A DNA stretch of 38,919 nucleotides, from contig CAMYVT010000015.1 in the NCBI GenBank assembly GCA_947302515.1, forward strand, positions 1 to 38,919. The letters run 5' to 3'. The position numbers and the translations under genes are program-made. Each line of letters opens with the position of its first letter. Position 1 is the stretch's first letter. The DNA is from an uncultured Caryophanales bacterium. Lineage in GTDB: Bacteria > Bacillota_I > Bacilli_A > RF39 > UBA660. Under the pieces are notes generated by a model. It was not told the DNA's origin. It was given only the letters and a program-made list of their open reading frames with translations, and did no database searches. Below, in pieces: positions 13,121 to 26,397 of the stretch.

Positions 13121-13121
13121 A

Positions 13122-13150
13122 AAAAGAAGTAGACATGTTCTACTTCTTTT
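13122..13150. terminator. bidirectional terminator between hsdS and the XRE gene
   Basis: 12-bp perfect stem AAAAGAAGTAGA / TCTACTTCTTTT with a 5-nt loop, A/T-flanked on both sides; it includes the stop codon of the convergent XRE gene. Confidence 0.88.
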
Positions 13151-13409
13151 CATCTATTCTTGAATAATTAGTTATTCTTGATTTATCGTTATTTAGAAAA
13201 TCAATTGGCTCAATCTTAACATTAACAAATTTACTTAAATTGTTTGCATATTTTGTTATAGTAGATAATTTAACATCCACCTTTTGTTGTTCCATCTTGT
13301 TTAAATGAGAAAGAGAAGTGCCAATTACTTCTGCAAACTTTTCCTGAGATAAGTTATACTTTTTTCTATAATATCTCAAGTTGACCGAAAGAATTTCTTT
13401 TAAATTCAT
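13140..13409 (-). CDS. XRE-family HTH regulator
   Basis: 89-aa DNA-binding protein, essentially one helix-turn-helix domain: LRYYRKKYNLSQEKFAEVIGTS at the N-terminus, then LSHLNKMEQQKVDVKLSTITKYAN. Size and position, convergent with hsdS and next to a restriction system, resemble controller (C) proteins, but it is not divergent with hsdR, so this role is inference. AAGGAGG precedes the start on the minus strand. The upstream region carries two copies of GGTAAGGAA that could be its operators. Confidence 0.85.
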   Translation of the reverse strand: MNLKEILSVNLRYYRKKYNLSQEKFAEVIGTSLSHLNKMEQQKVDVKLSTITKYANNLSKFVNVKIEPIDFLNNDKSRITNYSRIDEKK

Positions 13410-13451
13410 TATTAACTTACCTCCTTATGCATAAATAATCTTATCTTAAAG

Positions 13452-13486
13452 GGTAAGGAATGTCTTTATACCTACAAGGTAAGGAA
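13452..13486. promoter_or_regulatory. pair of direct repeats, possible XRE operators
   Basis: GGTAAGGAA at 13452-13460 and 13478-13486, 26 bp apart (2.5 helical turns), in the spacer between the XRE gene and the divergent 103-aa gene. The flanks also agree (AAGGTAAGGAAATTCT versus AGGGTAAGGAATGTCT). Confidence 0.4.
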
Positions 13487-13574
13487 ATTCTATATTTATT
13501 ATTTACTTTATATGCAAAATAAAGTATGATATCTTTGAAATTGAAATTAGATGTTGGTTAAAGCGGTGGAAGCT

Positions 13575-13886
13575 ATGAATATAGAAGAATTAGAAAAATT
13601 ATTAGAAACAAATTCAGTAAAAGACACAAATGATGATAGAACAATAATAGATTTTAAGAATAATATTGAAGATGGTAATGAAATAGGAGTAGTCTTATCA
13701 ACTATAAACTATAAAATATATGAAGTGTATATACATATAACTATAGATCAAAAAGTTTATTCCAAACTCTTATATACAACATTCAATAATATAGAAGAAG
13801 CTCGAATACTATATGATAAATTTAAAGAATATATAATTAATTATGATGTTAAATCAATTGTTTCTCTAATAAAAAATGAGAAATAA
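13575..13886 (+). CDS. hypothetical protein, 103 aa
   Basis: Not recognised. Acidic small protein, alpha/beta by eye: an N-terminal helix (IEELEKLLETN), a strand-rich middle (YKIYEVYIHITIDQKVYSKLLY) and a C-terminal helix. ATG 13575 follows GGTGGAAG; an upstream ATG at 13551 lacks a ribosome site. The last codons and the TAA lie in the first unit of a 12-bp tandem repeat (13876-13923); without the T in that unit the frame would continue as Asn-Glu-Lys-Lys repeats. The short frame upstream of an accessory-gene run fits mobile-element cargo or regulatory genes. Confidence 0.6.
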   Translation: MNIEELEKLLETNSVKDTNDDRTIIDFKNNIEDGNEIGVVLSTINYKIYEVYIHITIDQKVYSKLLYTTFNNIEEARILYDKFKEYIINYDVKSIVSLIKNEK

Positions 13887-13923
13887 AATGAGAAAAAAAA
13901 TGAGAAAAAAAATGAGAAAAAAA
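13876..13923 (+). repeat. 12-bp tandem repeat, four units
   Basis: ATGAGAAA(T/A)AAA repeated at 13876, 13888, 13900 and 13912. The first unit has T where the others have A, and this T makes the stop codon of the 103-aa gene. Confidence 0.85.
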
Positions 13924-13961
13924 ATAGGTCTTGAAATGAACCTGAAAAATGATAGAATGTA

Positions 13962-14010
13962 GTAAAGTAGAAGAATTCCCGAAAGGGATCTATGTCTTTT
14001 ACTTTTTTTA
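13962..14010 (+). terminator. composite hairpin with T run
   Basis: Nested pairings GTAAA/TTTAC, TAGA/TCTA and ATTCCC/GGGAT with a GAAA loop, then seven T's. Together with the tandem repeat it fills most of the 215-nt gap before the leader ORF; I see no further gene there. Confidence 0.65.
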
Positions 14011-14101
14011 TTGACTTTTTAATAAAAAATATTTAGAATAGAAATCAATTTAATGCAAGTGTTGAAAACATAATATATGCTTCATAAAAAGAGGTGAGAT
14101 T

Positions 14102-14233
14102 ATGATAGATGAACTTAGTTGCTTAGATTACTACTCATCAGGTTTTAAACTTGTTAGTCTTTCATACTCTAAAAAATCCAGCATTAAATCAAAATCTAAA
14201 TATATAAATAAAGAAGAAGTAATTACCGCCTAA
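14102..14233 (+). CDS. 43-aa leader-peptide-like ORF
   Basis: Short frame with a good ribosome site (AGAGGTGAGATT before ATG 14102). The peptide starts MIDELSCLDYY and is Ser/Lys-rich; it resembles nothing I know. Its last four sense codons and stop lie in the 5' arm and loop of a strong terminator (14211-14264), and the next gene's ribosome site begins 4 nt after the T run. Ribosomes reaching the stop would melt the hairpin, which is the geometry of a transcription-attenuation leader. It could alternatively be just a small gene with its own terminator. Confidence 0.5.
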   Translation: MIDELSCLDYYSSGFKLVSLSYSKKSSIKSKSKYINKEEVITA

Positions 14234-14264
14234 AAGGGCATTAACAATTACTTCTTCTTTTTTT
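14211..14264 (+). terminator. terminator/attenuator before the sigma-like gene
   Basis: Perfect 14-bp stem AAGAAGAAGTAATT / AATTACTTCTTCTT, 21-nt loop containing a small GCC/GGC pairing, then seven T's. It overlaps the end of the 43-aa ORF. Confidence 0.85.
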
Positions 14265-14283
14265 AGCAAGGGAGGTAGTGTCA

Positions 14284-14718
14284 ATGAAAGAATTATCAGA
14301 TAAAGAGATAAAAAGGTATAATTACACAAAAGTAAAAGAATATGTTGAAGATGAATTGTCATACTTAACTCATCTAGGCACGAAGCTATTTTGCTTACTA
14401 CCTCCTGGAGCAGGAAGACAAATGAGTTTTCTTGAAAAAGTTGATGGTACAGTTCAAATTGGATCAAAGCAAGAAAAATACGTAGAGAAAAAAGATTATT
14501 TAGAAAGAGCAATAAAAAATGAATTAAAAAGATTTGAAGATTATTTCAAAATAATGACAAAAGGTGAATTAAAAGTATTTGAAGAATTATATATATTTCA
14601 AAATACTGTTGAAGGATTAGAAGAAAAAACAGGATGGTCTAAAAATAAAATAGTTCATATTAAAAAAAGTTTTATGATAAAGTTGACTTTATCCATGGGT
14701 ATGGACTTTGAAAAATAA
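14284..14718 (+). CDS. sigma-like / phage-type HTH regulator
   Basis: 144-aa protein. The C-terminal half has the layout of ArpU/RinA-like or sigma-region-4-like regulators: GELKVFEELYIFQNTVEGLEEKTGWSK contains a helix-turn-helix, followed by IKKSFMIKL. The N-terminus is charged and helical with an odd LLPPGAG turn. Such proteins control late or transfer genes of phages and conjugative elements. AAGGGAGGT precedes ATG 14284; GTG 14278 would sit too near that site. No promoter is obvious between the terminator and the gene, so expression should depend on readthrough of the upstream attenuator. Family assignment is tentative. Confidence 0.55.
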   Translation: MKELSDKEIKRYNYTKVKEYVEDELSYLTHLGTKLFCLLPPGAGRQMSFLEKVDGTVQIGSKQEKYVEKKDYLERAIKNELKRFEDYFKIMTKGELKVFEELYIFQNTVEGLEEKTGWSKNKIVHIKKSFMIKLTLSMGMDFEK

Positions 14719-14730
14719 TTAATTGAAATT

Positions 14731-14757
14731 ACACATCTTAATTGATGTGTTTTTTTA
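14731..14757 (+). terminator. intrinsic terminator
   Basis: ACACATC / GATGTGT with a 6-nt loop and seven T's after the sigma-like gene. Confidence 0.85.
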
Positions 14758-14783
14758 TGCCCAAATGAATAGGAGGAGATAGA

Positions 14784-15257
14784 ATGGAAGAGTTTGGTAG
14801 CATTATTAAAAAAGAAAGAATAAAGAAAGGATTATCAATTACTGAATTATCAAAATTTACAGGAGTTGATATTAAAACAATTTCATTAATAGAGAGAGGA
14901 TTTAGAAAAAAACCAACATTAGATACATTATTTAAATTAGCAAATGTTTTAGAATGTATAACGTTTGATATGATGAAATCTATTGGATACACTGAAAATG
15001 AGATAATCATATATTTATGTGATGATGAGGATGACGAAGATTATGAAGATGAAGCTTTATCAGAATTTAAATTTAATTTTCATATTGCCCTACACGGTAA
15101 TGGAAAAGTCATTGCCAGTGATTTAGATGAAGCATACGATAATGCAGAAGAAATAATTAGAGATCATCTAAAACTTGATAACTATAAAAGTAAATATGAA
15201 AATATGGAATTTAATAAAGAGTACTCAATATTATATGATTTTGAGAAAAAAAGATAA
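14784..15257 (+). CDS. XRE-family regulator with acidic C-terminal domain
   Basis: 157-aa protein. Residues 1-65 form an XRE helix-turn-helix (IIKKERIKKGLSITELSKFTG, then IKTISLIERGFRKKPTLDTLFKLANVLE). An acidic DDEDDEDYEDE linker follows at about 75-86, then an alpha/beta domain (FNFHIALHGNGKVIASDLDEAYDNAEEIIRDHL) that looks like a small sensor or dimerisation module; a similar short alpha/beta pattern occurs in the 74-aa protein encoded next. AGGAGGAGAT precedes ATG 14784. It leads a run of closely packed small genes up to the serine recombinase, so a role as element repressor is plausible. Confidence 0.8.
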   Translation: MEEFGSIIKKERIKKGLSITELSKFTGVDIKTISLIERGFRKKPTLDTLFKLANVLECITFDMMKSIGYTENEIIIYLCDDEDDEDYEDEALSEFKFNFHIALHGNGKVIASDLDEAYDNAEEIIRDHLKLDNYKSKYENMEFNKEYSILYDFEKKR

Positions 15258-15268
15258 TAGGTGTAATT

Positions 15269-15493
15269 ATGAAAGAATATATAATATATATAGATACAAC
15301 AAGAACATCGGTTGTTCATGTACCTGCTAAAAATAAAAAACTAGCAAAAGAAATTGCTGAAAATTTTATAGATGGTATATTAGATGAAAAATTAGATATA
15401 GGAAATATAATAAACTATAATCCTGAATTTAAAATAAAAGTAAGAGAATGTAGAAACAGTAATTCTCTATTAGATAGGATAAAAAGAAAATGA
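15269..15493 (+). CDS. hypothetical protein, 74 aa
   Basis: Not recognised. It begins with a beta-strand (EYIIYIDTTRTSVVHVPA) and an alpha-helix (KKLAKEIAENFIDGIL), ending in a basic tail; the pattern recalls the C-terminal domain of the preceding XRE protein. The start is 11 nt after the previous stop. Its TGA overlaps the ATG of the following 41-aa membrane ORF (ATGA). Confidence 0.55.
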   Translation: MKEYIIYIDTTRTSVVHVPAKNKKLAKEIAENFIDGILDEKLDIGNIINYNPEFKIKVRECRNSNSLLDRIKRK

Positions 15494-15615
15494 TAATAAA
15501 AATTTTGATAGGCATAGTAATATGTCTTTTTTTATTGGTTATTTATTGTTGTTGTAGGGTAGCTAGTGAAGCAGATAAGTATATGGAGGATATTAAATAT
15601 GAAAAAAATGTATAA
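15490..15615 (+). CDS. small single-pass membrane protein, 41 aa
   Basis: One hydrophobic helix at residues 4-19 (KILIGIVICLFLLVIY) followed by three cysteines and a charged, probably cytoplasmic tail. It is translationally coupled: ATG 15490 overlaps the previous stop, and its 3' end overlaps the next gene by 17 nt. The GGAGGA of the next gene lies inside it. No family recognised. Confidence 0.5.
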   Translation: MIIKILIGIVICLFLLVIYCCCRVASEADKYMEDIKYEKNV

Positions 15616-15790
15616 GGCTTTTATTTACCTAAATGATAATGATCCAATTACAATGATAATTGGAGGTTCATCTAGACAATTAATAATAGAAAAATTAACA
15701 GATTTTTATAGAAAAATATCTGGTGCAGCCGAGATAGAAATAAAACTTAAAGAAGTTGAATACATAGATGGGGACTATAGATATAAATAA
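15599..15790 (+). CDS. hypothetical protein, 63 aa
   Basis: Basic small alpha/beta protein (KAFIYLNDNDPITMIIGG, then a helix RQLIIEKLTDFYRKI and a strand AEIEIKLKEVEYI). GGAGGA ends 8 nt before ATG 15599; the GTG further upstream at 15566 has no ribosome site. Not recognised. It belongs to the compact run of small genes ahead of the recombinase. Confidence 0.5.
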   Translation: MKKMYKAFIYLNDNDPITMIIGGSSRQLIIEKLTDFYRKISGAAEIEIKLKEVEYIDGDYRYK

Positions 15791-15809
15791 AAGAAAGGAA
15801 ATAGTTTTT

Positions 15810-15968
15810 ATGGCAATAATATTGACTAATAATTCGGAAAAGATAGATAAAAAATTTAAAAAAGGTCTTAACTATTTAAAGGTTTTAGGATATTTAAAAA
15901 GCAAGAAAGTAATTAATGAAGATACTTATAAAAAGTCAAGTGTGCAAATAAAAAATTCACACAATTAA
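15810..15968 (+). CDS. hypothetical protein, 52 aa
   Basis: Lys/Asn-rich, basic (pI clearly high), two short helices; MAIILTNNSEKIDKKFKKG then LKVLGYLKSKKVI. The start ATG 15810 follows GAAAGGAAA. In size, charge and position just upstream of a recombinase it could be a recombination directionality factor or excisionase-like protein, but no HTH is evident, so this is conjecture. Confidence 0.45.
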   Translation: MAIILTNNSEKIDKKFKKGLNYLKVLGYLKSKKVINEDTYKKSSVQIKNSHN

Positions 15969-16014
15969 ATAATAATAACTTTTACTATATATTTTTTGTT
16001 GAAAGGGTGATTTG

Positions 16015-17811
16015 ATGGAAATTACTTTAATAAAGAAAAAAGATGGTTTGATTGATAGAAAAAATGGAGAACTAATCAGTAGATTAAAAGTTGTTGCTTA
16101 TGCAAGAGTAAGTACAGATTCTGAAGAACAATTAAATAGTTATGAGTCTCAAAAAAAATATTATAAGGAAAAGATAGTATCTAATCCTGAATGGTCTTTT
16201 ATTGATATCTACGCAGATGAAGCAATTTCTGGTACACAAGATTTTAAACGAACAAATTTTATGAGGATGATCGATGATGGTTTAAAAGGTAAATATAACA
16301 TGATAATTACAAAATCAATATCTAGATTTGCCAGAAACACTCTTGATACTTTAAAATATGTAAGAATTTTAAAAGAAAAAAATATAGCAATTCTATTTGA
16401 AGAAGAAAACATTAATACTTTAGAAATGTCTGGTGAATTATTATTAACAATTCTAAGTTCTGTAGCTCAACAAGAAAGCGAAACAATTTCAAATCATGTT
16501 AAATTAGGACTTAAAATGAAATCAGAGCGAGGAGAACTAGTCGGTTTTAATAATTGTTATGGATTTAAATATGATAATAAAACAAACACATTATCCATTG
16601 TTGAAGAAGAAGCAGATATTGTAAAAATGATATTTAAAGATTATATTGAAGGAAAAGGATGTACATCTATTGCTAAAAGATTAACACAAATGAAAATAAA
16701 ATCACCACGAGGTAGTGATGTATGGTGTGATACAACTGTTAGAGGTATTTTAAGGAATGAAAAATACAAAGGTGATGTAATTCAAGGAAAGACTTTTACA
16801 ATAGATCCAATATCGCACAAAAGAGTGAAAAATTATGGCGAAAGTGACAAATACTATATGAAAGATCACCATGAAGGATTTATTGATTCAGTAACATATG
16901 AAAAAGCACAAGAAATTCTTAAAGAAAGATGTGGAGCGAGAGCCACAGGCAGAAGACTTGGCAATATTGGAGTAAAGTATCCATTAAGCGGGATGATGAA
17001 ATGTGGTTATTGTGGTAACACTTATACAAGAAGAGCAATGTATAATAAGTCAGATAATATAGCAATATGGAATTGTTGGTTAAGTACAAAAGGTTCACGA
17101 GAACAATGCCCAAATAGTAGAATGTTTAGAGAAACAACTATTCTAAATGCATTTGTAGATGGATACCATATATTATGCAATACTAATGAAGAAAACATTG
17201 AATCATTATTTAATAATGTTACAAAATATGTAAATGCAAATAATTATCAGGGAAAAATAAATCAATTAAAAACGCAAATATATAATATTGAGCAAAGAAA
17301 AAAGAGACTAGTTGACGTAATGCTTGATGGAACAATTGATAAACCAACATATACAGAAAAAGTAGAACAATTCAATAAAAAAATAGAAAGATTATATAAA
17401 GAAATAAATCAATATGAACTATTATGTGAAGATGATAATAAGATTGAAAATGGTATAAGCAAAATAAAAGAAATGATAAAAAATAATAATATACTTGAGG
17501 GATTTGATGAAGAAGTATTTAAGTCACTCGTAGATTATATAATTATTGGTGGATATGATAATGGTAAAATTACTGAATATATGATAAGATTTATTTGTAA
17601 AACTAAGTTCAATTTTACTGTTAGAAATAATTTAACTACTGAACTAATACTTAAAAATAATGATATAAGTATTCAAGAAAATGATTTTATAACAATTTTA
17701 GATTTTTATAGTATGCAAAAATACAATGTATTTGAAAAAGATGAAAATAATAAAATAACTAAAGTTGAGAAAGATAGGGTTAGAGTTAGATTCGAAATTG
17801 AAAAGCAATAA
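16015..17811 (+). CDS. large serine recombinase
   Basis: 598-aa site-specific recombinase of the phage/transposon integrase type. Resolvase domain at about 25-170 with YARVSTDSEEQ (nucleophile S33) and the ISRFARNTLDTL helix; Recombinase domain (YGFKYDNKTN ... GCTSIAKRLTQMKIKSPRG); zinc ribbon starting CGYCGNTYTRR with the second cysteine pair in WNCW and EQCPN; long C-terminal coiled coil. ATG 16015 follows AAAGGGTGA. Such enzymes integrate and excise elements without host factors. It is the last gene of the small-gene run and is followed within 10 nt by structured repeat A, then by an array of repeat-separated genes, so those repeats are candidate recombination sites. Confidence 0.93.
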   Translation: MEITLIKKKDGLIDRKNGELISRLKVVAYARVSTDSEEQLNSYESQKKYYKEKIVSNPEWSFIDIYADEAISGTQDFKRTNFMRMIDDGLKGKYNMIITKSISRFARNTLDTLKYVRILKEKNIAILFEEENINTLEMSGELLLTILSSVAQQESETISNHVKLGLKMKSERGELVGFNNCYGFKYDNKTNTLSIVEEEADIVKMIFKDYIEGKGCTSIAKRLTQMKIKSPRGSDVWCDTTVRGILRNEKYKGDVIQGKTFTIDPISHKRVKNYGESDKYYMKDHHEGFIDSVTYEKAQEILKERCGARATGRRLGNIGVKYPLSGMMKCGYCGNTYTRRAMYNKSDNIAIWNCWLSTKGSREQCPNSRMFRETTILNAFVDGYHILCNTNEENIESLFNNVTKYVNANNYQGKINQLKTQIYNIEQRKKRLVDVMLDGTIDKPTYTEKVEQFNKKIERLYKEINQYELLCEDDNKIENGISKIKEMIKNNNILEGFDEEVFKSLVDYIIIGGYDNGKITEYMIRFICKTKFNFTVRNNLTTELILKNNDISIQENDFITILDFYSMQKYNVFEKDENNKITKVEKDRVRVRFEIEKQ

Positions 17812-17821
17812 TCGAGAAAAA

Positions 17822-17942
17822 ATGACCTATTCCTGACACGCAAACAACCCTGGCAGTTTTATGTATAGGAACATGTTTTTAAATATGAAACATGGTTAGA
17901 TGACCTATTCCTGAAAAGGTGACCACCCATTGCGAGAGTGTC
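17822..17942 (+). repeat. structured repeat, copy A
   Basis: Begins 11 nt after the recombinase stop. Blocks: ATGACCTATTCCTGA (17822-17836, repeated exactly at 17900-17914), CAAACAAC (17841), GGTTAGA (17894), ACCCAT (17925). Closing stem GACA+CGCAA (17835-17843) with TTGCG+TGTC (17930-17934, 17939-17942); inner hairpin CATGTTT/AAACATG (17872-17894). The 97-nt core 17839-17935 matches copy B at 90 positions without a gap. It ends 25 nt before the next start codon. Confidence 0.85.
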
Positions 17943-17966
17943 TGTGTATTAGAGAGGAGATAATAT

Positions 17967-20114
17967 ATGAATTTATGTGAATCAAAATATGTGCAAGGAA
18001 TATCTTGTGTTAAAAAATTATGGTTGTCTTGTTTTAAGAAAAGAGAAGGTATTTATAATAATTTTTTGGATGAAGCTAAAACTAAAATAATAGATTTAGC
18101 AAGAACATATTTTGGAGATAATTATGTTCTAATTAATCAAGATGCTATTTATAAAAATATGCTAGATGAAACCAATAAATATGTTGAAAACAAATCTAGT
18201 GTTATATGTAATGCTCAATTTATATTTGATGATAATTCTTGTTCAATTGATATTTTGAAAAATAATGATGATGGTGTTGAAATATATAATGTTAAAGCCT
18301 CTACGTCTATTTATGAAGAATATATAGATGAAATATCATATCAAATATGGATTTTAAAGAAATGTGGATTAAAAATTAAAAAAGCTTCAATATTGTATGT
18401 CAACAGTCAATATATCAAAAACGGAGATCTAAATGTTAAAGAATTCTTTAATATTGAAGAAATTACAAGTTACAATCTTAATAATGTAGAAGAGAATATT
18501 GATTCATTCAAAAAGATAATAAATCAAGATAAAGAACCTAATATAGATTTATCAATGGCATGCAGTAATTGTCCATTTTTTAAATACTGTACTAAAGAAT
18601 TACCATCTCCAAATGTATTTGATTTAGGAAGTACAACTTTTAGTAAAAAAATTGATTTTTATAAAAAAGGTCATATTTCTTACGTTGATTTATTGAAATA
18701 TGAAAAGTCATTAAATGCTAAAGCAACAAATCAAATAAAAGCTTATTTTAAAGACAAAAGTCAATCAAAACCAATAATAAATAAAGAAATTATTGCAACG
18801 TTCTTTAGAAAAATAAAATATCCGCTGTATTTTTTAGATTTTGAAGCATATCAAGATTTAGTACCTAAAATAGATGGGACTAAGCCATATCAGCAAATAT
18901 GTTTTCAATATAGTTTACATTACTTTTTAGAAGAAAATGGAGAACTATTTCATAAAGGTTTTCTAAGTGATAATTATGATAATCCTATGTATGACTTGTG
19001 CAAACATCTATGTGAAGATATACCTATGAATTCTTGTATACTTGTCTATAATAGTATTTTTGAAAAAATGAGATTAAAAGAAATGTCAGAATTATATTCA
19101 AAATACAAAGACCATTTGTTAAATATTAGTAATAATATAATAGATTTAGCAGATATATTTAAATCTCAAAGCTATTATACAAAAGAAATGAAAGGAAGTT
19201 ACACCCTTAAAAATGTTCTTTTATCATTGTTTCCAATTGATCATAATTTAGATTATAGTAATCTAGAAAAAGTTCATAATGGTGTTGAAGTAAGCAATGC
19301 TTTCTTATCTTTAAAAGAATTGCCTAAAGAAGAGCAAAATAAATTGAGACAAAATATGATCAAGTATTGTGAATTAGATTCTTATGCAATGTTTAAGGTA
19401 TATGAAACGCTAAGAATAACAAATAAAAAAAATGAAATATTTGCAGATACTACGGAAGAAATATTAGAATATGAAAAATTTGAAGAAAAAACAAATGAAT
19501 TAAATAATAGTATAAATTTAAAGCAAACCAATAAATATTTTGAATCATCAACAAAGCCAAAAGTAAAATCAATTGAGGATATAAAAGCAAAATATAGTAA
19601 TATTAATTTCAATAATTTAAATGAAAATACACCAAAATTATTATTAGGTGGTGACTTTATATATGATCAATATCTAGAAGTTTTTGGTTCTAATTGGGAT
19701 TATAGTGCTCCAATAGCACAATGGTGTCGAGCAGTCGAGGGAGAATTAAGAAGTAAAATTTATTCACTTTTAGATTCACAAAAAATAAAAATAGAAATTA
19801 GTGAAGAAAGTGTTAAACTTACTAACAAAGTATTAAAAGTGAAACCAGACTTAGGATTCTATAGCACAATGAAAGATTTTGGCCTAACAGAATCTATATT
19901 TAATAATTATATTAAAAATAATTATATAAATTTAACTTTATATGATTTCAAATTATTGGTAGACTATATTTATAAAATCGTGCCATACAGAAATAATTCT
20001 TCACATAATGATAATAAGATACATTATTTAAAAATAGATGCAGATGAATGCAAAGACTATATTGTACCAGTTAAGAAAATACTTGAAATATTATCACATT
20101 TAGAAAAGCGATGA
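17967..20114 (+). CDS. Cas4-like/DUF2779 nuclease fused to a HEPN RNase domain
   Basis: 715 aa. N-terminus (1-220): DUF2779-type Cas4-like start (KYVQGISCVKKLWL; C4, C14) and a cysteine cluster near 200 (CSNCPFFKYC), suggesting a PD-(D/E)xK-like fold with an Fe-S cluster. Middle (285-490): DUF2779 DEDD-type 3'-5' exonuclease with D291 and E293 in FLDFEAYQD and D471 in CELDSYAM. C-terminus (about 560-715): helical domain with WCRAVEGELRSKI (586-598) and R675-N676-x3-H680, the RNxxxH active site of HEPN ribonucleases. HEPN domains are common toxin effectors in anti-phage systems, so this is probably a defense protein that processes nucleic acid ends and cuts RNA. GAGAGGAGAT precedes the ATG. 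First gene after the serine recombinase, between repeats A and D. The fusion is unusual to my knowledge. Confidence 0.8.
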   Translation: MNLCESKYVQGISCVKKLWLSCFKKREGIYNNFLDEAKTKIIDLARTYFGDNYVLINQDAIYKNMLDETNKYVENKSSVICNAQFIFDDNSCSIDILKNNDDGVEIYNVKASTSIYEEYIDEISYQIWILKKCGLKIKKASILYVNSQYIKNGDLNVKEFFNIEEITSYNLNNVEENIDSFKKIINQDKEPNIDLSMACSNCPFFKYCTKELPSPNVFDLGSTTFSKKIDFYKKGHISYVDLLKYEKSLNAKATNQIKAYFKDKSQSKPIINKEIIATFFRKIKYPLYFLDFEAYQDLVPKIDGTKPYQQICFQYSLHYFLEENGELFHKGFLSDNYDNPMYDLCKHLCEDIPMNSCILVYNSIFEKMRLKEMSELYSKYKDHLLNISNNIIDLADIFKSQSYYTKEMKGSYTLKNVLLSLFPIDHNLDYSNLEKVHNGVEVSNAFLSLKELPKEEQNKLRQNMIKYCELDSYAMFKVYETLRITNKKNEIFADTTEEILEYEKFEEKTNELNNSINLKQTNKYFESSTKPKVKSIEDIKAKYSNINFNNLNENTPKLLLGGDFIYDQYLEVFGSNWDYSAPIAQWCRAVEGELRSKIYSLLDSQKIKIEISEESVKLTNKVLKVKPDLGFYSTMKDFGLTESIFNNYIKNNYINLTLYDFKLLVDYIYKIVPYRNNSSHNDNKIHYLKIDADECKDYIVPVKKILEILSHLEKR

Positions 20115-20240
20115 CTTAGTACTAGTACTCAAACAACTAGGGTAGTATCATATCTAGGAAATATTCCTGATACTGAAACAAGGTTAGAGCACTTAGCACT
20201 GACACTGATACAACCCATGTTGAAACCGTATCAATACTAT
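20112..20240 (+). repeat. structured repeat, copy D
   Basis: Starts at the stop codon of the nuclease-HEPN gene. Blocks CAAACAAC (20130), GGTTAGA (20182), ACCCAT (20213) keep the A/B spacing (52 versus 53 nt, then 31 nt in all three). Hairpin AGTATC/GATACT (20144-20174) with inner AGGAA/TTCCT replaces the A hairpin. Closing pair TCAA/TTGA replaces GCAA/TTGC, a compensated change. Confidence 0.65.
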
Positions 20241-20293
20241 GTCGTAAAACCATTGAAAAATAAGGAAAAGTAATATTTTTAAAAGCCAATAAT

Positions 20294-20337
20294 AATCCCT
20301 TTTTTGATATAAATAACTAGAAAGAGGGATTTTTTTA
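20294..20337 (+). terminator. intrinsic terminator after repeat D
   Basis: AATCCCT / AGGGATT with a 24-nt loop and a T run. It lies in the 374-nt gap between the nuclease-HEPN and XRE genes; the rest of the gap is repeat D, the inverted fragment at 20341 and AT-rich leader. Confidence 0.7.
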
Positions 20338-20340
20338 TTT

Positions 20341-20387
20341 AACCATGTTATAGGGAATAGGTCATAATTAATTTGAAAAACATGTTC
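20341..20387 (-). repeat. decayed inverted fragment of the structured repeat
   Basis: Three blocks match copy A in reverse complement: AACCATGTT (20341-20349), GGAATAGGTCAT (20354-20365) and AAAAACATGTTC (20376-20387). The first two are in swapped order, so it is a rearranged remnant. Confidence 0.5.
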
Positions 20388-20488
20388 ATATAATAGAGTA
20401 TAGTATAATTATTTAAAACTCTACTAACACTGTGGGTACAATTAGTAATTCTTATATTATAATAAATTTGAATAGAGGAGGTATAATT

Positions 20489-21121
20489 ATGAATCAAGAA
20501 AAAATAGGAAAATTTATTGCTAGGGTAAGAAAAGAAAAAAATATGACTCAACAAGAATTAGCTAATAAACTAAATATTACTGATAGAGCAATTTCACATT
20601 GGGAAAACGGAAGATCTATGCCTGATGCTGGAATTATGTTAGAGTTATGTAAGTTGCTTGATATTAATGTCAATGAACTATTATCAGCAAAGAAAATTAT
20701 AAAAGAATCTTACAATGAACAAGCAGAGGAAAATCTTTTAGAGATGAGGCGTGAAATAGAAAGCAAAAATAAGAAAATTCTTATTTTAAATAGAATCATA
20801 ACATTTCTAGGAGTTGTTATATATTTATTAATAGTTCTTTCAACAATACTTATTGAAATGCCTATGGTAATAAGAAACACAATTATGGCACTTGCTTTAG
20901 TAATATTACTTTTATTCGGAGTATACAATCTCAATATCATCCGAAAAACAGGATATTATGAATGCCAAGAATGTAAGCACCAATATATCCCAACATTTTA
21001 TCAAATGTTTTTTGGTATGAGTGGAATAACTAAAGATGGAATATGGCGAATGAAATGTCCAAATTGTAACAAAAAATGTTGGCATAAGAAAGTCTTAACA
21101 AAAAATAAGCAATCGCAATAA
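20489..21121 (+). CDS. membrane-anchored XRE regulator with C-terminal zinc ribbon
   Basis: 210 aa. HTH at 1-65 (KIGKFIARVRKEKNMTQQELANKLNITDRAISHWENGRSMPD), a helical linker, two hydrophobic segments (about 99-118 ILNRIITFLGVVIYLLIVLS and 126-146), then a four-Cys zinc ribbon (CQECKHQY and CPNCNKKCW). This architecture is common in Firmicutes; the soluble HTH faces DNA while the membrane part may sense envelope or small-molecule signals. AGAGGAGGT before ATG 20489 sets the start. Gene lies between the decayed inverted repeat fragment and repeat B, so it fits the cassette pattern. Function unknown. Confidence 0.82.
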   Translation: MNQEKIGKFIARVRKEKNMTQQELANKLNITDRAISHWENGRSMPDAGIMLELCKLLDINVNELLSAKKIIKESYNEQAEENLLEMRREIESKNKKILILNRIITFLGVVIYLLIVLSTILIEMPMVIRNTIMALALVILLLFGVYNLNIIRKTGYYECQECKHQYIPTFYQMFFGMSGITKDGIWRMKCPNCNKKCWHKKVLTKNKQSQ

Positions 21122-21141
21122 TTTCGTTTTTAATAACACGC

Positions 21142-21166
21142 AAGCAGATGAAAAAATTTGCTTTTT
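21142..21166 (+). terminator. hairpin with T run
   Basis: AAGCAGAT / ATTTGCTT (one G.T) with a 6-nt loop and T's; ends 3 nt before the next promoter. Confidence 0.65.
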
Positions 21167-21169
21167 GTA

Positions 21170-21178
21170 TGTTATAAT
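21170..21178 (+). promoter_or_regulatory. extended -10 promoter reading into repeat B
   Basis: TGTTATAAT. Transcripts would start near 21185 and carry all of repeat B as a 5' leader of about 165 nt for the 71-aa gene. Confidence 0.65.
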
Positions 21179-21200
21179 ATAATTAGTAATGAAAAAAAGC

Positions 21201-21314
21201 ATATGTTCCTGATTCGCAATCAACCCTGGCAGTTTTATGTATAAGAACATATTTTTAAATATGAAGCATGGTTAAATGACCTATTCCTGAATAGGTGTCC
21301 ACCCATTGCGAATC
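21201..21314 (+). repeat. structured repeat, copy B
   Basis: Perfect 10-bp closing stem GATTCGCAAT (21211-21220) / ATTGCGAATC (21305-21314); hairpin ACCTAT/ATAGGT (21279-21296); and ATATGTTC (21201-21208) / GAACATAT (21245-21252), which is interleaved with the closing stem and would make a pseudoknot. Core 21215-21311 aligns with copy A. Confidence 0.88.
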
Positions 21315-21349
21315 CATCGTGGTTTTAGAAAGAAAGTAAAGGATATTTT

Positions 21350-21565
21350 ATGAAAAAAGAAAATAAAAAAATAAAAGAAGAAAATAATAAAAAAGAAGAT
21401 AACAATAGTTACTGGATAGCTATTGGAATGTGTATAGGTATAAGTGTTGGTACATCAATTGGTGCTTCTACAAATAATATGGGTTTATGGTTACCTATTG
21501 GACTTAGTATTGGTCTATGTATCGGACTAGCATTATCAAGTAAAAACAAAAATGAAAAAAAATAG
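21350..21565 (+). CDS. small glycine-zipper membrane protein, 71 aa
   Basis: Lysine-rich N-terminal 20 residues followed by a hydrophobic stretch with regular glycines (IGMCIGISVGTSIGAS, then LPIGLSIGLCIGLALS): two glycine-zipper helices that should insert in the membrane as a hairpin, and a short Lys/Asn tail. The family is unknown. The gene is flanked by repeats B and C. Two tight glycine-zipper helices can form oligomers or pores, so a toxin- or immunity-type role is possible but not shown. Weak ribosome site (AAAGTAAAGGAT). Confidence 0.65.
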   Translation: MKKENKKIKEENNKKEDNNSYWIAIGMCIGISVGTSIGASTNNMGLWLPIGLSIGLCIGLALSSKNKNEKK

Positions 21566-21567
21566 GA

Positions 21568-21650
21568 ACTAGGAAACATGTTCTGTTGACCTAGTACAGG
21601 CCTAGAGCATATGTTCTTCACCCCAGGACAGGGCACGTTGAATGCGTCTG
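21568..21650 (+). repeat. structured repeat, short variant C
   Basis: Starts 2 nt after the stop of the 71-aa gene: hairpin ACTAGG-AACA / TGTT-CCTAGT (21568-21595), then GCATATGTTC shared with copy B and CACCCC. Its 3' tail TCTGTATATTAGAAAGGA-TGTAAT parallels the tail of copy A up to the next start codon. Confidence 0.5.
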
Positions 21651-21671
21651 TATATTAGAAAGGATGTAATT

Positions 21672-22148
21672 ATGGAACTAGAAGATTTATATGATGGAAA
21701 TTTTAATAAATTAAATAAAACAATCAGAAGAAAAATAGATAAAATACCAGAAGGTTGCTATGTAATGATGTCTTATGCATTGATAAAGAATAATGATAAA
21801 TATTTACTTGAACAAGCAACTGCTAGAAGTAATAACACACTAGCTATTCCAGGAGGACATGTACTTGCTGGAGAAGATGGATTAACTGGTTTGAAAAGAG
21901 AATTAAAAGAAGAATTAAATATAAAAGATTTAAACATTAAACATTTAGATACAATAATTTATCCATATAAGAATTATATTTTTAATATTTATTTAATTGA
22001 AGATAAAATAGATATTGATAGTATAAAATATGATACAGAAGAAGTAGTAGATATTAATTGGCTTACTAAAGATGAAATTTTTAATAAAATTAAAGATGGA
22101 AAAGTAAATAAGGGGTATGCTTATATATTAGAAAACTATTTGAATTAG
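21672..22148 (+). CDS. NUDIX hydrolase
   Basis: 158-aa NUDIX-fold pyrophosphatase. The NUDIX box is complete: GHVLAGE (Gx5E), seven residues, then RELKEEL-NI. An N-terminal extension of about 25 residues precedes the first strand (YVMMSYALIKNNDKYLLEQA). Substrates in this family range from dNTPs to NDP-sugars and capped RNA; nothing here decides. ATG 21672 follows GAAAGGATG; the frame could open at 21642 but lacks a ribosome site. Last gene of the repeat-separated array; a degenerate repeat-like hairpin begins at its stop codon. Confidence 0.87.
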   Translation: MELEDLYDGNFNKLNKTIRRKIDKIPEGCYVMMSYALIKNNDKYLLEQATARSNNTLAIPGGHVLAGEDGLTGLKRELKEELNIKDLNIKHLDTIIYPYKNYIFNIYLIEDKIDIDSIKYDTEEVVDINWLTKDEIFNKIKDGKVNKGYAYILENYLN

Positions 22149-22149
22149 G

Positions 22150-22185
22150 AGTTAGTACTAATACAACTATGTGATGTCTCTAACT
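22150..22185 (+). repeat. degenerate structured-repeat relative E
   Basis: AGTTAG / CTAACT hairpin. The sequence TTAGTACTAATACAACTATG resembles copy D (TTAGTACTAG... and ATACAACCCATG). Weak similarity; could be a truncated end of the array. Confidence 0.35.
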
Positions 22186-22249
22186 TTACTTGAAAGAAAA
22201 AATGATTTAGATGTCGATAGCGCAGAACTTTATTATTTAATATTACATT

Positions 22250-22278
22250 AAAAAAGAAGATTTAATCTTCTTTTTTTT
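22250..22278. terminator. bidirectional terminator
   Basis: AAAAAAGAAGAT / ATCTTCTTTTTT with a TTA loop, between the NUDIX gene and the convergent 163-aa gene. Confidence 0.85.
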
Positions 22279-22279
22279 A

Positions 22280-22771
22280 TTATAATGTTTTATTTTTAAT
22301 TTTTTGTCTATTATATATTGTTGATGAAGAAAGCTCATTGGTTTTTTCACAATCATCTTTATTAAACAATCCTAAATAACCACCTAAAGAATCAATTACT
22401 CTTTTTAGTGCTTCTTCATCCGATGTATATACTGTATAGTACCATTTGTTCTGTATACCATTATTATTTGTTCCGATATGTTCTTGAGCTACATAAGTAG
22501 CATTACTTACACAAAAATCCAAACCATTTTCTTCGCTATCAAATATATCATATGGTTTTCCATCTGTATAGATATTGGTATGCCAATATCCAGATGAATA
22601 AATAGAGTCTCCTGCACTATATGGTACTTCTTCCATAGTATCTAATAATACTACTTTAAAAGAGTCTGGATTAGCATTATTTTCTTTCCATTCTGTTGTT
22701 ACTGATGGAAAATCTCCCATAGATCCCAATTCATTTAAATCAAATTCAGTAATTATTTTTTGTTTTTTCAT
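22280..22771 (-). CDS. hypothetical protein, 163 aa
   Basis: Not recognised. Soluble, rich in Asn, Ser and Tyr, no signal peptide; middle part SAGDSIYSSGYWHTNIYTDGKPYDIFDSEENG looks like beta-hairpins, and a segment YTSDEEALKRVIDSLGGYLG is helical. AAGGATGTGA precedes the start on the minus strand. Codon choice is A-ending like the left half of the window. It is divergent from the AlkD-like gene and may mark the right edge of the accessory region. Confidence 0.6.
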   Translation of the reverse strand: MKKQKIITEFDLNELGSMGDFPSVTTEWKENNANPDSFKVVLLDTMEEVPYSAGDSIYSSGYWHTNIYTDGKPYDIFDSEENGLDFCVSNATYVAQEHIGTNNNGIQNKWYYTVYTSDEEALKRVIDSLGGYLGLFNKDDCEKTNELSSSTIYNRQKIKNKTL

Positions 22772-22829
22772 TTATATTCACATCCTTATATATAGAATAT
22801 CATATATATCATTTTATAACAAATAAATA

Positions 22830-22838
22830 TGTTATAAT
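22830..22838 (+). promoter_or_regulatory. extended -10 promoter of the AlkD-like gene
   Basis: TGTTATAAT 18 nt before the start codon; the mRNA leader would be about 10 nt. Confidence 0.65.
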
Positions 22839-22856
22839 AATATTGGAGATGTAATT

Positions 22857-23537
22857 ATGGATTATATACAAAAAGAATTATTTAAATTACAAGATAAGGA
22901 ATATGGTATTTTTCAAACTAAATTGATTCTAACAGCTAGTCCTGATGTTTTTATAGGTGTTCGTACACCTGAACTTAGAAAATTTGCTAAAGAATTAGTT
23001 AAAAATAATAATTATTCTACTTTTTTAAATGATTTACCACATAAGTATTTTGATGAGAATCAATTACAAGCTTTTATTATTTCAGAAATAAAAAATTATG
23101 ATGAATGTATTACTTATTTAAATATTTTTCTACCTTATGTAGATAATTGGGCTACTTGTGATCAGATGTCTCCTAAGATATTTAAAAAAAATAAAGATAA
23201 ATTATTAAGTGAAATAAAAAAATGGATTAAATCTAAAGATACATATACTATACGATTTGGTATAGGTATGCTTATGCAGTATTATTTAGATGAAGATTTT
23301 AAAATTGAATATTTAAATTGGGTTTCTAAAATTAAATCAAAAGAGTATTATGTTAATATGATGATTGCCTGGTTTTTTGCCACAGCACTAGCTAAACAAT
23401 ATGATTCAACTATTCCATATATAGAAAATAATAAACTTGATGTTTGGACACATAATAAAGCTATTCAAAAATCATTAGAAAGCTATCGTATTACTCCTGA
23501 TAGAAAGGAATACTTACGAAATTTAAAAACTAAATAG
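22857..23537 (+). CDS. DNA alkylation repair protein (AlkD-like HEAT-repeat glycosylase)
   Basis: 226-aa all-helical protein of the AlkC/AlkD family, which excises bulky or positively charged alkylated bases by a non-flipping mechanism. Family landmarks: GVRTPELRKFAKEL near residue 35-48, DLPHKYFDENQLQAF, VDNWATCDQMSP, TIRFGIGMLM and NKAIQKSLESYRI. Catalytic Asp/Trp/Tyr residues are plausible in WATCD but I did not align them formally. GGAGATG precedes the ATG. Codon use shifts here to T-ending codons shared by the genes to its right. Confidence 0.88.
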   Translation: MDYIQKELFKLQDKEYGIFQTKLILTASPDVFIGVRTPELRKFAKELVKNNNYSTFLNDLPHKYFDENQLQAFIISEIKNYDECITYLNIFLPYVDNWATCDQMSPKIFKKNKDKLLSEIKKWIKSKDTYTIRFGIGMLMQYYLDEDFKIEYLNWVSKIKSKEYYVNMMIAWFFATALAKQYDSTIPYIENNKLDVWTHNKAIQKSLESYRITPDRKEYLRNLKTK

Positions 23538-23565
23538 AGTATAATTAGATGATAATAATTAATAA

Positions 23566-23591
23566 AAAAGAACTAGCTATAAGTTCTTTTT
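23566..23591 (+). terminator. intrinsic terminator
   Basis: AAAAGAACT / AGTTCTTTT with a 7-nt loop, after the AlkD-like gene. Confidence 0.75.
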
Positions 23592-23659
23592 ATTATGTCT
23601 TAATTCTATTGATTTTTATTTTTTATTATATATAATATATGCTTGAAAGGAGTGATTTC

Positions 23660-23995
23660 TTGATATACTTTAATTCAAATCCTAATATTAAATTTTTTGA
23701 AAGAAATACTTGTAAAATTAATAGATCTAGTAAAGCATATTCATTTTTTCTTAATGAATATAGAGGAATAAAAACTAATGATTATGATTATTTATTATCA
23801 AGTCATCAAAAGAAAAGAGGAATTATTTCTTCTTTTATAGGTGATATGTTGGAAGATGATTCTTCTATTATAGTAAAGCCTGGTACTGTTGGTCATATGT
23901 ACTTTACTAGTGAATTTGGTCATGATTTTCCTGAAGATAAAGATCATAATTTAATAATATCTGATGATTTAGATAATGTTAGGATTGCTAAATAA
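23660..23995 (+). CDS. hypothetical protein, 111 aa
   Basis: Unrecognised soluble protein: IYFNSNPNIKFFERNTCKIN, a helical middle and a C-terminal part GTVGHMYFTSEFGHDFPEDKDHNLIISDDL with three His and many acidic residues. The start is placed at TTG 23660 because AAAGGAGTGAT lies at the proper distance; ATG 23639 has no ribosome site in front. Flanked by terminators on both sides, so it is a single-gene unit. Confidence 0.55.
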   Translation: MIYFNSNPNIKFFERNTCKINRSSKAYSFFLNEYRGIKTNDYDYLLSSHQKKRGIISSFIGDMLEDDSSIIVKPGTVGHMYFTSEFGHDFPEDKDHNLIISDDLDNVRIAK

Positions 23996-24022
23996 AAACA
24001 AGTAGTTATCTACTTGTTTTTT
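23995..24022. terminator. bidirectional terminator
   Basis: AAAACAAGTAG / CTACTTGTTTT with a 4-nt loop and T run, between convergent genes. Confidence 0.85.
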
Positions 24023-24027
24023 AATTA

Positions 24028-24948
24028 TTATTTTTCTAGTCTCATAGATTGTTCTTGCGACTTTTTTGCTTTTTGTGCTAGCTGAGCTACAAGTTTATTA
24101 TTTCTTTCCATTAATTCCATTATTTGTCTATTATTTTCATCTATTTGTCTTTGAATCTCTTCTTGAGAAAGAGTAGGGGATACATCTTCTTCAATCATTT
24201 GACTTATTTCTTGATTTGTTTCTTGTGTTTGTTGATGATCTAATTCTTCTTTATTCTCATTTGGATCTACTATACGTCCGTCTTTAATATATTTACTAAA
24301 TTTTTCTTTTACAATGTTATATACATCTTTAACAGTTTTTCCTGGAGCCATTTGTACTTTATCTATATCAATTCCTCTTTCAATAAAGATTTCTACCATT
24401 TTAAAAAATGGTGGGATATAGACATTTAAATCTTCTACTAAACTCTTAGTATTTCCTTTATATGCTGCTTCTATTTCTTCAAGTGGTTGAACATATATCC
24501 ATTGAAATAAAGCGTTATGGGCAAATGCACCTAATTGTTCTGGACAAAAATCATGAATTAATCCAACTCTTCTTATTAATTCTTCTTCATCAACTGTTTC
24601 TCTAAATGTTTCTCCTCGTAATCCTCTATCGCGGACTGCTAGTGCTTCTTCATTCATTGCTGCTCTAGCAAGAGTACTAATTGATTCTCCTGGACCACCA
24701 TTTACACCTAATTCTCTACGTGTTGCTAAATCTAATATTTGTGGATTTTTATAATCTATTCCTCTATCAATATCTCTTAATCTATCAGCATAGTCTTGTT
24801 CTCTCATACCTTGAGCTAATGCTTTTGGAAAATGCAAATAATCTGGGTGTCTATCACCTAAATATTTTTTACACCATTCTATTATTTCTTGATCAGTTTT
24901 TCCCTCAAATATTCTAGGACTAACTATAACTTCTTCTTTATCATACAT
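24028..24948 (-). CDS. hypothetical protein with C-terminal coiled coil, 306 aa
   Basis: Not recognised. Residues 1-220 are a soluble, Arg/Glu-rich helical domain (DQEIIEWCKKYLGDRHPDYL; HNALFQWIYVQPLEEIEAAY); 221-255 is a low-complexity Gln/Glu linker; 256-306 is a clear coiled coil (EEIQRQIDENNRQIMELMER). No enzymatic motif, no signal peptide or membrane segment. TTAGGAGATGAT precedes the start. It is single in its orientation between the 111-aa gene and the EEP gene, whose promoter is divergent. Confidence 0.6.
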   Translation of the reverse strand: MYDKEEVIVSPRIFEGKTDQEIIEWCKKYLGDRHPDYLHFPKALAQGMREQDYADRLRDIDRGIDYKNPQILDLATRRELGVNGGPGESISTLARAAMNEEALAVRDRGLRGETFRETVDEEELIRRVGLIHDFCPEQLGAFAHNALFQWIYVQPLEEIEAAYKGNTKSLVEDLNVYIPPFFKMVEIFIERGIDIDKVQMAPGKTVKDVYNIVKEKFSKYIKDGRIVDPNENKEELDHQQTQETNQEISQMIEEDVSPTLSQEEIQRQIDENNRQIMELMERNNKLVAQLAQKAKKSQEQSMRLEK

Positions 24949-25069
24949 ATAATCATCTCCTAATTATTACTAATTAAATTATATCATATTATATTTTAAT
25001 ATTATTATTTTGTGTTTTTAAATATGTTTATAAATGTAAAGTTTATAGTATTAATAAATATATATTTTA

Positions 25070-25078
25070 TGATATAAT
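25070..25078 (+). promoter_or_regulatory. extended -10 promoter
   Basis: TGATATAAT 28 nt before the EEP-phosphatase gene, in AT-rich spacer. Confidence 0.65.
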
Positions 25079-25106
25079 AAATTTGTTATGAAATGGAGTT
25101 TGTAGT

Positions 25107-26363
25107 ATGAGAAAAAACGATGTATTAAAAGCAGTTAATAAGAAAAATACAAATAATAAGACTACAACTAGTAAAAAGAAAAAAACTGTTTCTAAAAAGA
25201 GAAAAGAAGTAAAAAAAGTAGTTCCTAAAACTACTCCTGAAGTTATTGTTAAAGAAGAGATAATTAATAAAGAAATAGTAGAAGAAAATATTCCTTTTAA
25301 AATTAAATTAAAAAGATTTGGTATTAAATTACTAATTGCTTTAGTTATATTTATTGCTTTATTATTAGCATTCTTTACTTTAACAGAATATAAACCTAAA
25401 GATGTAGAGAAACTTACTATATCTGGTGAAGGATTCTTTACTTTAAATCCTAATGATACATTTAGTATTATGACTTGGAATGTTGGATATGGTGCTTTAG
25501 GTGATAATGCTGATTTCTTTATGGATAATGGTACGATGGTTAAAACTGCTGATAGAAATAGAATTAATAAGAATTTAGCTTCTATTAGAAATGTTATATC
25601 TAATGATAAACCTCAGATTATATTTCTACAAGAAGTAGATGTTTCTTCTACTAGAGCTAGTCATGTTAATGAATTATCATTATTTAGAAATCATTTGTAC
25701 AATTATTCATCAGCTTTTGGTACTAATTTTAAAGTTACATATTTGCCATATCCTATAGGAGAACCTATTGGTAGGGTTCACTCTGGTATAGCAACTTTTT
25801 CTAAATATACAATGAGTGATGCTAAAAGAATACAGCTTCCTAGTAGTTTTATTTGGCCTGTTAGTACTGTTAATTTAAAAAGATGTTTAGTAGTTACTAG
25901 AATACCTATTAAAGATAATGAAAAAGAACTTGTTCTTATTAATTTACATCTAGAAGCATATGATTCTGGTAAAGGAAAAGAATTACAAACTAAAAAGTTA
26001 TTAGAAGTTATGAATAAAGAAAAGAAAAAAGGTAATTATGTTATAGTAGGTGGAGATTTTAATCAGACTTTTGATTGTATTGATTCTTCTCAATATCCAT
26101 TACAAGATAAAGTATGGAAACCTGGAGAGATTAATATTAAAGATTTTGGTAAAGGATGGAATTTCTTAATGGATAATACTAATCCTACTTGTAGAAGTCT
26201 TGATAAACCTTATGTTGATGCTGATAAAGATAAATTCCAATACTATTTAATTGATGGATTTATTGTTACTGATAATATTAAAGTAAATTCTGTTAAAACA
26301 GAAAATCTTGATTTTGTTGCTAGTGATCATAATCCTGTTATAATGAATGTTACATTAAGTTAA
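25107..26363 (+). CDS. membrane-anchored endonuclease/exonuclease/phosphatase (EEP) family protein
   Basis: 418 aa. Lys/Thr-rich cytoplasmic N-terminus (1-58), one membrane helix at about 69-91 (GIKLLIALVIFIALLLAFFT), then an extracellular EEP domain: MTWNVGYG, IIFLQEVD (metal-binding Glu), NLHLEAYD, VGGDFNQTFDC and the catalytic ASDHNPV at the end. EEP enzymes are Mg-dependent phosphodiesterases (nucleases, sphingomyelinases, inositol phosphatases); the surface location fits a lipid or nucleic-acid hydrolase. A strong terminator follows. Confidence 0.88.
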   Translation: MRKNDVLKAVNKKNTNNKTTTSKKKKTVSKKRKEVKKVVPKTTPEVIVKEEIINKEIVEENIPFKIKLKRFGIKLLIALVIFIALLLAFFTLTEYKPKDVEKLTISGEGFFTLNPNDTFSIMTWNVGYGALGDNADFFMDNGTMVKTADRNRINKNLASIRNVISNDKPQIIFLQEVDVSSTRASHVNELSLFRNHLYNYSSAFGTNFKVTYLPYPIGEPIGRVHSGIATFSKYTMSDAKRIQLPSSFIWPVSTVNLKRCLVVTRIPIKDNEKELVLINLHLEAYDSGKGKELQTKKLLEVMNKEKKKGNYVIVGGDFNQTFDCIDSSQYPLQDKVWKPGEINIKDFGKGWNFLMDNTNPTCRSLDKPYVDADKDKFQYYLIDGFIVTDNIKVNSVKTENLDFVASDHNPVIMNVTLS

Positions 26364-26397
26364 TAAAAGTAAAGATGTCTTTACTTTTATTTTTTTA
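26362..26397 (+). terminator. intrinsic terminator
   Basis: 13-bp stem AATAAAAGTAAAG / CTTTACTTTTATT with an ATGT loop and T run; overlaps the EEP stop. Confidence 0.9.

Follow-up and report, generated by a model that had tools for sequence, protein, structure and literature searches.

Integrons are the best-known system for collecting single genes into expressed arrays, and their sites carry the core RYYYAAC/GTTRRRY. The staphylococcal and Enterococcus cassette chromosomes (SCC and ECC) have the core TATCATAA, as given in PMC6222049. Here we describe a family of repeats in a 38,919-nt stretch of contig CAMYVT010000015.1 from an uncultured Caryophanales bacterium (the window, whose numbering is used for its sites), together with related repeats in other genomes. 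It is probable that these repeats are attachment sites of mobile, mostly one-gene cassettes, which insert at a CA dinucleotide in the 3' end of rlmD (rumA), the gene for the 23S rRNA methyltransferase RlmD, probably by way of a large serine recombinase.

A first-pass annotation of the window had listed three copies (A, B, and D) of a structured repeat between accessory genes. The family is real, and its copies sit between genes on the same strand. Copies A and B are the same at 90 of 97 positions (17839-17935 and 21215-21311), as that annotation had counted, and form the longest direct repeat detected in 12000-27000. The motifs and spacings it described for D likewise hold: CAAACAAC lies at 17841 and 20130, with CAATCAAC at 21217 in B; GGTTAGA at 17894 and 20182 (GGTTAAA in B, 21270); and ACCCAT at 17925, 20213, and 21301. 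A fourth, different-looking site, C (CA at 21634), was absent from the list. At all four window sites the 3' part encodes an RlmD-type C-terminus (Table I). After a shared ACCCA, the right arm reads, in one frame, either HCES[IV]..LER[RK] and a stop codon or HVE.. and a stop codon, and the same sequence forms the 3' end of a gene in several genomes. That gene is rlmD: all four proteins tested pass the TIGR00479 cut-off, and 12 of the 13 genomes with arrays contain a protein above it.

The 12 RlmD proteins fall into two groups. Eight (G003, G004, G005, G006, G007, G009, G010, and G020) have an HCES-type end with a cassette open reading frame (ORF) directly after it, and four (G001, G002, G008, and G013) end in HVE. 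Among 38 distinct rlmD ends from array and related genomes, a list confined to loci that were returned by searches and fit a C-terminal regular expression, 28 are HVE or HIE and 10 are HCE; eight of the latter are the occupied ones. The pentamer TATCA is present at 9 of the 12 rlmD sites. The other two HCE ends, L203 (G471) and L219 (G011), read HCESITVLERR with no gene start close behind, and are possibly scars of lost cassettes.

A regular expression gave 60 hits, of which 57 sites in 13 Bacilli genomes and the window were kept (L058:5989, L060:19212, and L067:4629 were dropped as chance). The left side of the joint is formed by rlmD, by an arm belonging to one of four recurrent types, or, in two cases, by a rarer sequence; to the right lies an HCE (cassette-type) or HVE (native-type) arm. 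Counted as HCE/HVE, the left sides divide into type 1, 8/8; type 2, 6/2; type 3, 9/2; type 4, 6/2; rlmD, 8/4; and other, 2/0, such that both right classes are found with rlmD and with all four left types. On this evidence left-arm types and right-arm classes combine freely around CA, which is present in 54 of the 57 sites (the expression fixes it) and is the only sequence that all left arms and both right classes share. Pairs of sites with the same left type have high identity to the left of CA and low identity to the right, and pairs of the same right class show the opposite. The sharp edge in identity is partly by construction, because the expression fixed CA and GA and the types and classes were assigned from the nearest bases; the difference between the two sides nevertheless extends leftward for about 40 nt and rightward for about 35 nt, past the assigned bases.

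When the sequences are cut at the sites, 41 closed segments result. They range from 330 to 4451 bp and mostly hold one or two genes; three of them are possibly chromosomal (rlmD to the next site in G001 and in G002, and D to B in the window). For comparison between genomes, six sites missed by the expression were added by position (L062:6756, L064:1401, L069:1186, L069:4333, L061:5503, and L063:7919), and BLAST matches longer than 150 nt were considered. Three matches run from CA to CA: 4451/4450 bp at 99.73% identity (G001 and G002), 351/351 bp at 98.3% (G006 and G002), and 1517/1518 bp at 90.6% (G001 and G007). The rlmD genes of G001 and G002 can be aligned over 437 nt only, with 66.6% identity. 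The 4.45-kb cassette holds a [FeFe]-hydrogenase/NADH-type operon (L062:1901-5993 and L173:2902-6994) that is 99.7% identical in its two genomes. This segment starts with HVECVCLLMKKKS, followed by the same bases as are found after the rlmD end of G013 (HVECVCLLMKKKN), as would be expected if a native rlmD end had once been picked up and carried along.

The closed segments have the one-orientation, gene-plus-site layout of integrons: all 55 ORFs of at least 70 aa lie on one strand, where ORFs were chosen longest first with little overlap, so that short overlapping reverse ORFs are left uncounted. Of the 32 segments in the HCE class, 29 have their first ORF beginning 38-46 nt beyond CA (the others at 92, 322, and 414 nt); in the HVE class this distance is 147-512 nt in nine of nine. 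The codons of LERR and the stop, GAA AGG AGA TAA, contain a ribosome-binding sequence. Among 20 array proteins scanned, four are NUDIX proteins, five are without a domain, and one has a weak AAA match below the cut-off; the remainder are single examples of HD, HIT, HAD, GNAT, APH-type phosphotransferase, zeta/CPT-like kinase, DUF218, DUF2441, GH10, and Bro-N proteins. PADLOC matched four of ten proteins (Cas4 models on the DUF2779 protein, PDC-S07 on a NUDIX protein, a weak REase_II match on one, and mad3/mad8 on an ABC protein), and these model matches fall short of proof of defense.

The right arm of D and the bases following it are 84% identical over 169 nt to the intact rlmD end of G001 (HVETVSVLCRKTIEK and a stop codon). 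Because of this match, D most likely marks the right-hand boundary of an array inserted in rlmD and carries the displaced native RlmD end; the left part of that array would lie before the window. No further site was found upstream of A in the window. Sites B and C form a second stretch of sites approximately 1 kb beyond D, and in G001 and G002 the first array site likewise lies 2-3 kb past a native-ended rlmD.

These observations can be accommodated in a single scheme. A circular cassette would carry one site, in which a left arm is followed by CA and then by a right arm mimicking the final dozen codons of rlmD. A site-specific recombinase, by our reading a large serine recombinase acting in trans, would exchange strands between the cassette CA and the CA belonging to the His codon of the terminal H-x-E motif of rlmD (attB). 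Insertion would cut off the native RlmD end, and the cassette arm would supply a substitute HCES..LERR and stop codon with the H-x-E residues kept, so that RlmD activity may be retained. The last codons of the arm resemble a ribosome-binding site and could serve the cassette gene that follows, which would be read from the rlmD transcript. The native end would be displaced to the distal side of the array (copy D would be an example), and repeated insertion would build integron-like arrays of mostly promoterless genes.

The site family is also found elsewhere. A pattern of the three shared motifs gave 18 stretches in species genomes, of which 11 are real, in 10 genomes; seven (L012, L017, L018, L020, L022, L024, and L028) were judged from their sequence to be chance matches. 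The 10 genomes are metagenome-assembled genomes titled Erysipelotrichaceae, Tenericutes, Bacillales, Bacilli, or Firmicutes; six contigs have RUG isolate names and one is from goat omasum. A covariance model built from 15 copies matched all 10 of them. It also matched 5 of 146 relatives of G001, 12 of 386 genomes from the family of G007, and, in the class of G007, 1 of 395, which is G007 itself; these three large scans used strict filters, with which weak copies are lost. The family is sporadic and narrow in the genomes sampled. Among eight loci from previously unused genomes, four right arms have H-x-E in frame (L269, L270, L272, and L273). H-x-E is recognizable by eye in L271; L268 has N for H, L274 is decayed, and L275 (G676) is without a right arm, beside an rlmD ending HCESVCILERR.

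In phages and plasmids a distant blastn search gave only matches of approximately 40 nt, in two and one records, respectively. Three motif-pattern matches in viral contigs were dismissed as chance once their sequences were read, separate patterns for the four left-arm types gave no match in viral contigs, and none of the four stretches from these contigs holds a DUF2779 relative.

Table I. Attachment sites and neighboring features of the window
Feature	Position	Strand	Description
Large serine recombinase gene	16012..17811	+	599 aa as listed; closest homologue begins one residue later; ends ~11 bp before site A
Site A	17824..17963	+	Type 2 left arm 17824-17927, CA 17928-17929, right arm to 17963 encoding HCESVCVLERR and stop
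Cassette gene, DUF2779 protein with Cas4-like stretch	17967..20114	+	Starts 39 nt after site A CA
Site D	20112..20263	+	Type 1 left arm 20112-20215, CA 20216-20217, right arm to 20263 encoding native-type RlmD end HVETVSILCRKTIEK and stop
XRE-type regulator gene	20489..21121	+	Between D and B; ORF listed from 20432, start at 20489 by our reading
Conserved block before site B	21138..21197	+	Possible extended -10 (TGnTATAAT); common to G001, G646, and G021
Site B	21198..21339	+	Type 2 left arm 21198-21303, CA 21304-21305, right arm to 21339 encoding HCESIVVLERK and stop
Small cassette gene	21350..21565	+	71 aa; starts 46 nt after site B CA
Site C	21567..21669	+	Type 4 left arm to 21633 (left limit uncertain), CA 21634-21635, right arm to 21669 encoding HVECVCILERM and stop
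NUDIX gene	21672..22148	+	Starts 38 nt after site C CA; ORF listed from 21642, start at 21672 by our reading

A promoter scan called no promoter at the conserved block before site B. Upstream of the type 2 site of L270 (G646), the bases before this block match the 3' end of the window XRE gene; for this reason the XRE regulator may belong to the block that precedes the type 2 site. After the NUDIX gene, at 22140-22240, a stretch TTAGTACTAATACAACTATG..TTTACTTGAAAGAAA resembles a decayed site (by eye only). Positions 408-13120 of the window carry an island-like set of genes for a CCA-adding-enzyme-like protein, RlaP, a macro domain, McrBC, and type I restriction (HsdR, HsdM, and HsdS).

The left arms have features of their own. 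In a test of 34 of the 43 typed sites, those with a recognizable full left arm, the last 34 nt of the arm match upstream parts of the arm in direct orientation in types 1, 3, and 4 (median p <=0.005) and not clearly in type 2 (0.20). For the inverted match of the same 34 nt the median p is 0.245, 0.323, and 0.545 in the types other than type 4, and 0.042 in type 4, a weak inverted match. Types 1 and 2 share a near-palindrome, TTCCTAATACGCAAACAAC-NNN-GGTAGTTTCATATCTAGGAA, at columns 31-33 of an alignment of the copies (alignment A1), whose two to three central bases vary between conserved flanks, as might be seen in a second or accessory site.

A large serine recombinase is suggested as the enzyme by the 2-bp joint, the SCC-like TATCA at rlmD sites, and the serine recombinase gene abutting A. 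The product of that gene contains PF00239, PF07508, and PF13408 domains, and 7939 of 7991 candidates scored are homologues at E<=1e-30. It is the best candidate in the window; that it, or an enzyme like it, acts on the sites is a suggestion, as yet unproven. Its best relatives in array genomes are 47-48% identical. In two of these genomes large serine recombinase genes occur in triplets (L176, G013:C105; and L177, G007:C1), and the third gene is the one in array genomes that is closest to the window enzyme; the regular expression found no cassette site beside either triplet. No ccr-type recombinase was recognized in the other arrays examined, where part of the ORFs were scanned, and no recombinase is tied to arrays outside the window.

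Several points weigh against a serine recombinase and a CA joint as proposed. The best NCBIfam model for the window enzyme is CcrC at 122.6 bits against a cut-off of 900, making it distantly CcrC-like, and recombinases with PF07508 and PF00239 occur in 6 of 10 and 9 of 13 array genomes, respectively. The regular expression found no site at 26 recombinase loci of array genomes, nor at nine loci with relatives of the window enzyme. Left arms of approximately 105 bp are longer than usual serine attP arms, and the M1 motif near the 5' end of the left arm can pair with the common right arm, an arrangement also found in attC sites. CA is replaced by TA (L062:6756 and L064:1401) or AA (L268) in three sites, and the sharpest part of the joint profile is a product of the regular expression and of class assignment next to the joint. 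Window site C, in an open segment outside these counts, is followed by an ORF start at 38 nt although its arm is of the HVE class. Neither a circular cassette nor the reaction has been seen.

The strongest competitor is a true integron-type mechanism, in which sites would fold as single strands like attC, a tyrosine recombinase would join them, and rlmD would act as attI. We consider this unlikely, although it is the alternative to be taken most seriously. Little identity is needed for an integron integrase to act on attC. The 5' motif AATACGCAA can pair with the common right arm TTGCG..GTATC, and this pairing beats slid registers; PF00589 proteins are present in 13 of 13 array genomes; and two of the copies fold better than shuffled sequences. 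In single-strand folding against 200 shuffles, D reaches z -4.34 (no shuffle as good) and B z -2.62 (three as good), with A at -0.33 (72 as good) and C at 0.05 (94 as good). An inner hairpin at columns 38-73, which the first-pass annotation had taken as structurally preserved despite sequence change, is indeed kept, with 92-97% pairing; nearly all of its changes are one-sided.

The same annotation had also proposed that the closing stem covaries, and this could not be upheld. GACAC of A (columns 17-21) faces GTGTC at columns 120-124, and GATTC of B faces GAATC at columns 116-120; since the paired columns differ, the two closing pairs are not homologous. Across 15 copies, 73.3% of cells are paired in the A register, against 72.7% in shuffles (with 213 of 500 as high), and 57.8% in the B register, against 57.5% in shuffles (with 253 of 500 as high). 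Both registers beat all versions slid by one to three columns (maximum 44.2% for A and 38.5% for B) yet do no better than their shuffles, so the halves of the stem can pair, but through fixed bases and not through covarying ones. The RNAalifold consensus on 15 copies is -3 kcal/mol, and the covariation score of the whole given structure was reached by 397 of 500 shuffles; the totals for this structure are lowered by a third helix that was entered in a wrong register. Against an integron mechanism, then, the stem is without covariation and cannot form well with many HVE arms. The window tyrosine recombinase is XerD-like, scoring 148.5 bits against the 265 cut-off of the integron integrase model TIGR02249 (run on the window protein only), and its cluster, found in 12 of 13 array genomes, looks housekeeping.

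It is improbable that the loci are ordinary tandem SCC-like islands whose attachment sites accumulated near rlmD and whose single-gene layout reflects decay. Upstream of A there is indeed a large element, which carries McrBC and type I restriction genes together with a serine recombinase, and SCC-type islands with several attR sites are known (PMC6222049). However, units of 330-4451 bp with mostly one or two genes are common, intact, to different genomes, and the distance to the ORF start is held in 29 of 32 segments.

That the copies are a structured RNA element between genes, as initially proposed, is very improbable. The folding of D and B and the paired inner hairpin agree with it, but covariation is absent, right arms lie in the RlmD reading frame at four of four window sites, and arms recombine at CA. 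The window has no Rfam match at gathering score, in keeping with the first-pass annotation, which recognized no described RNA family. Of the original argument for selection on structure, the RNA half is without support from covariation, and a folded-DNA site stays as a rival, given that D and B fold well and the inner hairpin is kept. Least credible is a repeat inserted between genes in the manner of a miniature inverted-repeat transposable element, for which a site-like half with a long inverted repeat near an occupied rlmD in G676 would speak, since identical units span CA to CA with a gene inside instead of running from repeat end to repeat end. In that locus (L275, ~1501-1637, minus strand) the site-like half is followed by GGCAGTTTTATGTATAG..CTATACATAAAACTGCC.

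Returning to cassettes that insert at the rlmD CA, the chances seem about even that they amount to a second, independently evolved integron of uncultured Bacilli. Serine recombination would take place at the H-x-E codons of rlmD, several recombinase specificities, reflected in the four left-arm types, would share one entry gene, and cassettes (NUDIX, GNAT, HAD, kinases, nucleases, and a hydrogenase operon) would travel between species. A single 36-nt right arm would be protein C-terminus, recombination half-site, and ribosome-binding site in one, an unusual combination for so short a segment. If true, the same logic with another joint would mean that cassette capture evolved more than once, and would account for the gathering of accessory genes in some uncultured Bacilli. 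For experiment, the system supplies an attB open to direct test, together with four kinds of partner site and a candidate enzyme. No description of such cassette arrays was found in titles and abstract starts among the matches listed in the open-licence PMC literature.

Several described systems come close to these arrays. Integrative and conjugative elements in rumA with a single serine integrase (in Streptococcus, and CTn5 of C. difficile) share the target gene and, by our reading, the recombinase class (PMC4701971). In the same account their attR lies within the integrase gene, whereas here the site lies beside the recombinase gene; they are large, conjugative, encode their own integrase, and change the rumA frame, whereas here the reading frame and the H-x-E codons survive and small units stand in arrays. 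SCC/SCCmec and ECC, with CcrAB/CcrC, are alike in inserting at the 3' end of an rRNA methyltransferase gene, in having several sites in a row, and in the window recombinase being distantly Ccr-like. Their core (PMC6222049) is likewise comparable with the TATCA of the rlmD sites. The target sets SCC apart, its attB being the 3' end of rlmH rather than rlmD/rumA, so that one defining feature of SCC fails here. ECC elements are 21-78 kb with ccrAB, and the closed segments here, of 330-4451 bp, show no recombinase of their own among the ORFs scanned. The cassettes here also differ from SCC/ECC in their several left-arm types and in a right arm that supplies a ribosome-binding site.

Integron cassettes (attI, attC, and IntI) are alike in their same-strand arrays, in which each gene is followed by a site at a short distance, in the displacement of the native target half to the array end, and in their varied contents. 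The integron tests are mixed, however: the joint here is at CA inside a protein-coding target with an approximately 36-nt right arm encoding a protein end, the integron core was not seen at the sites, and no IntI was found (with the integrase model run on the window protein only). Taken as a whole, the element appears to work like an integron and like SCC, without appearing to use a known integron.

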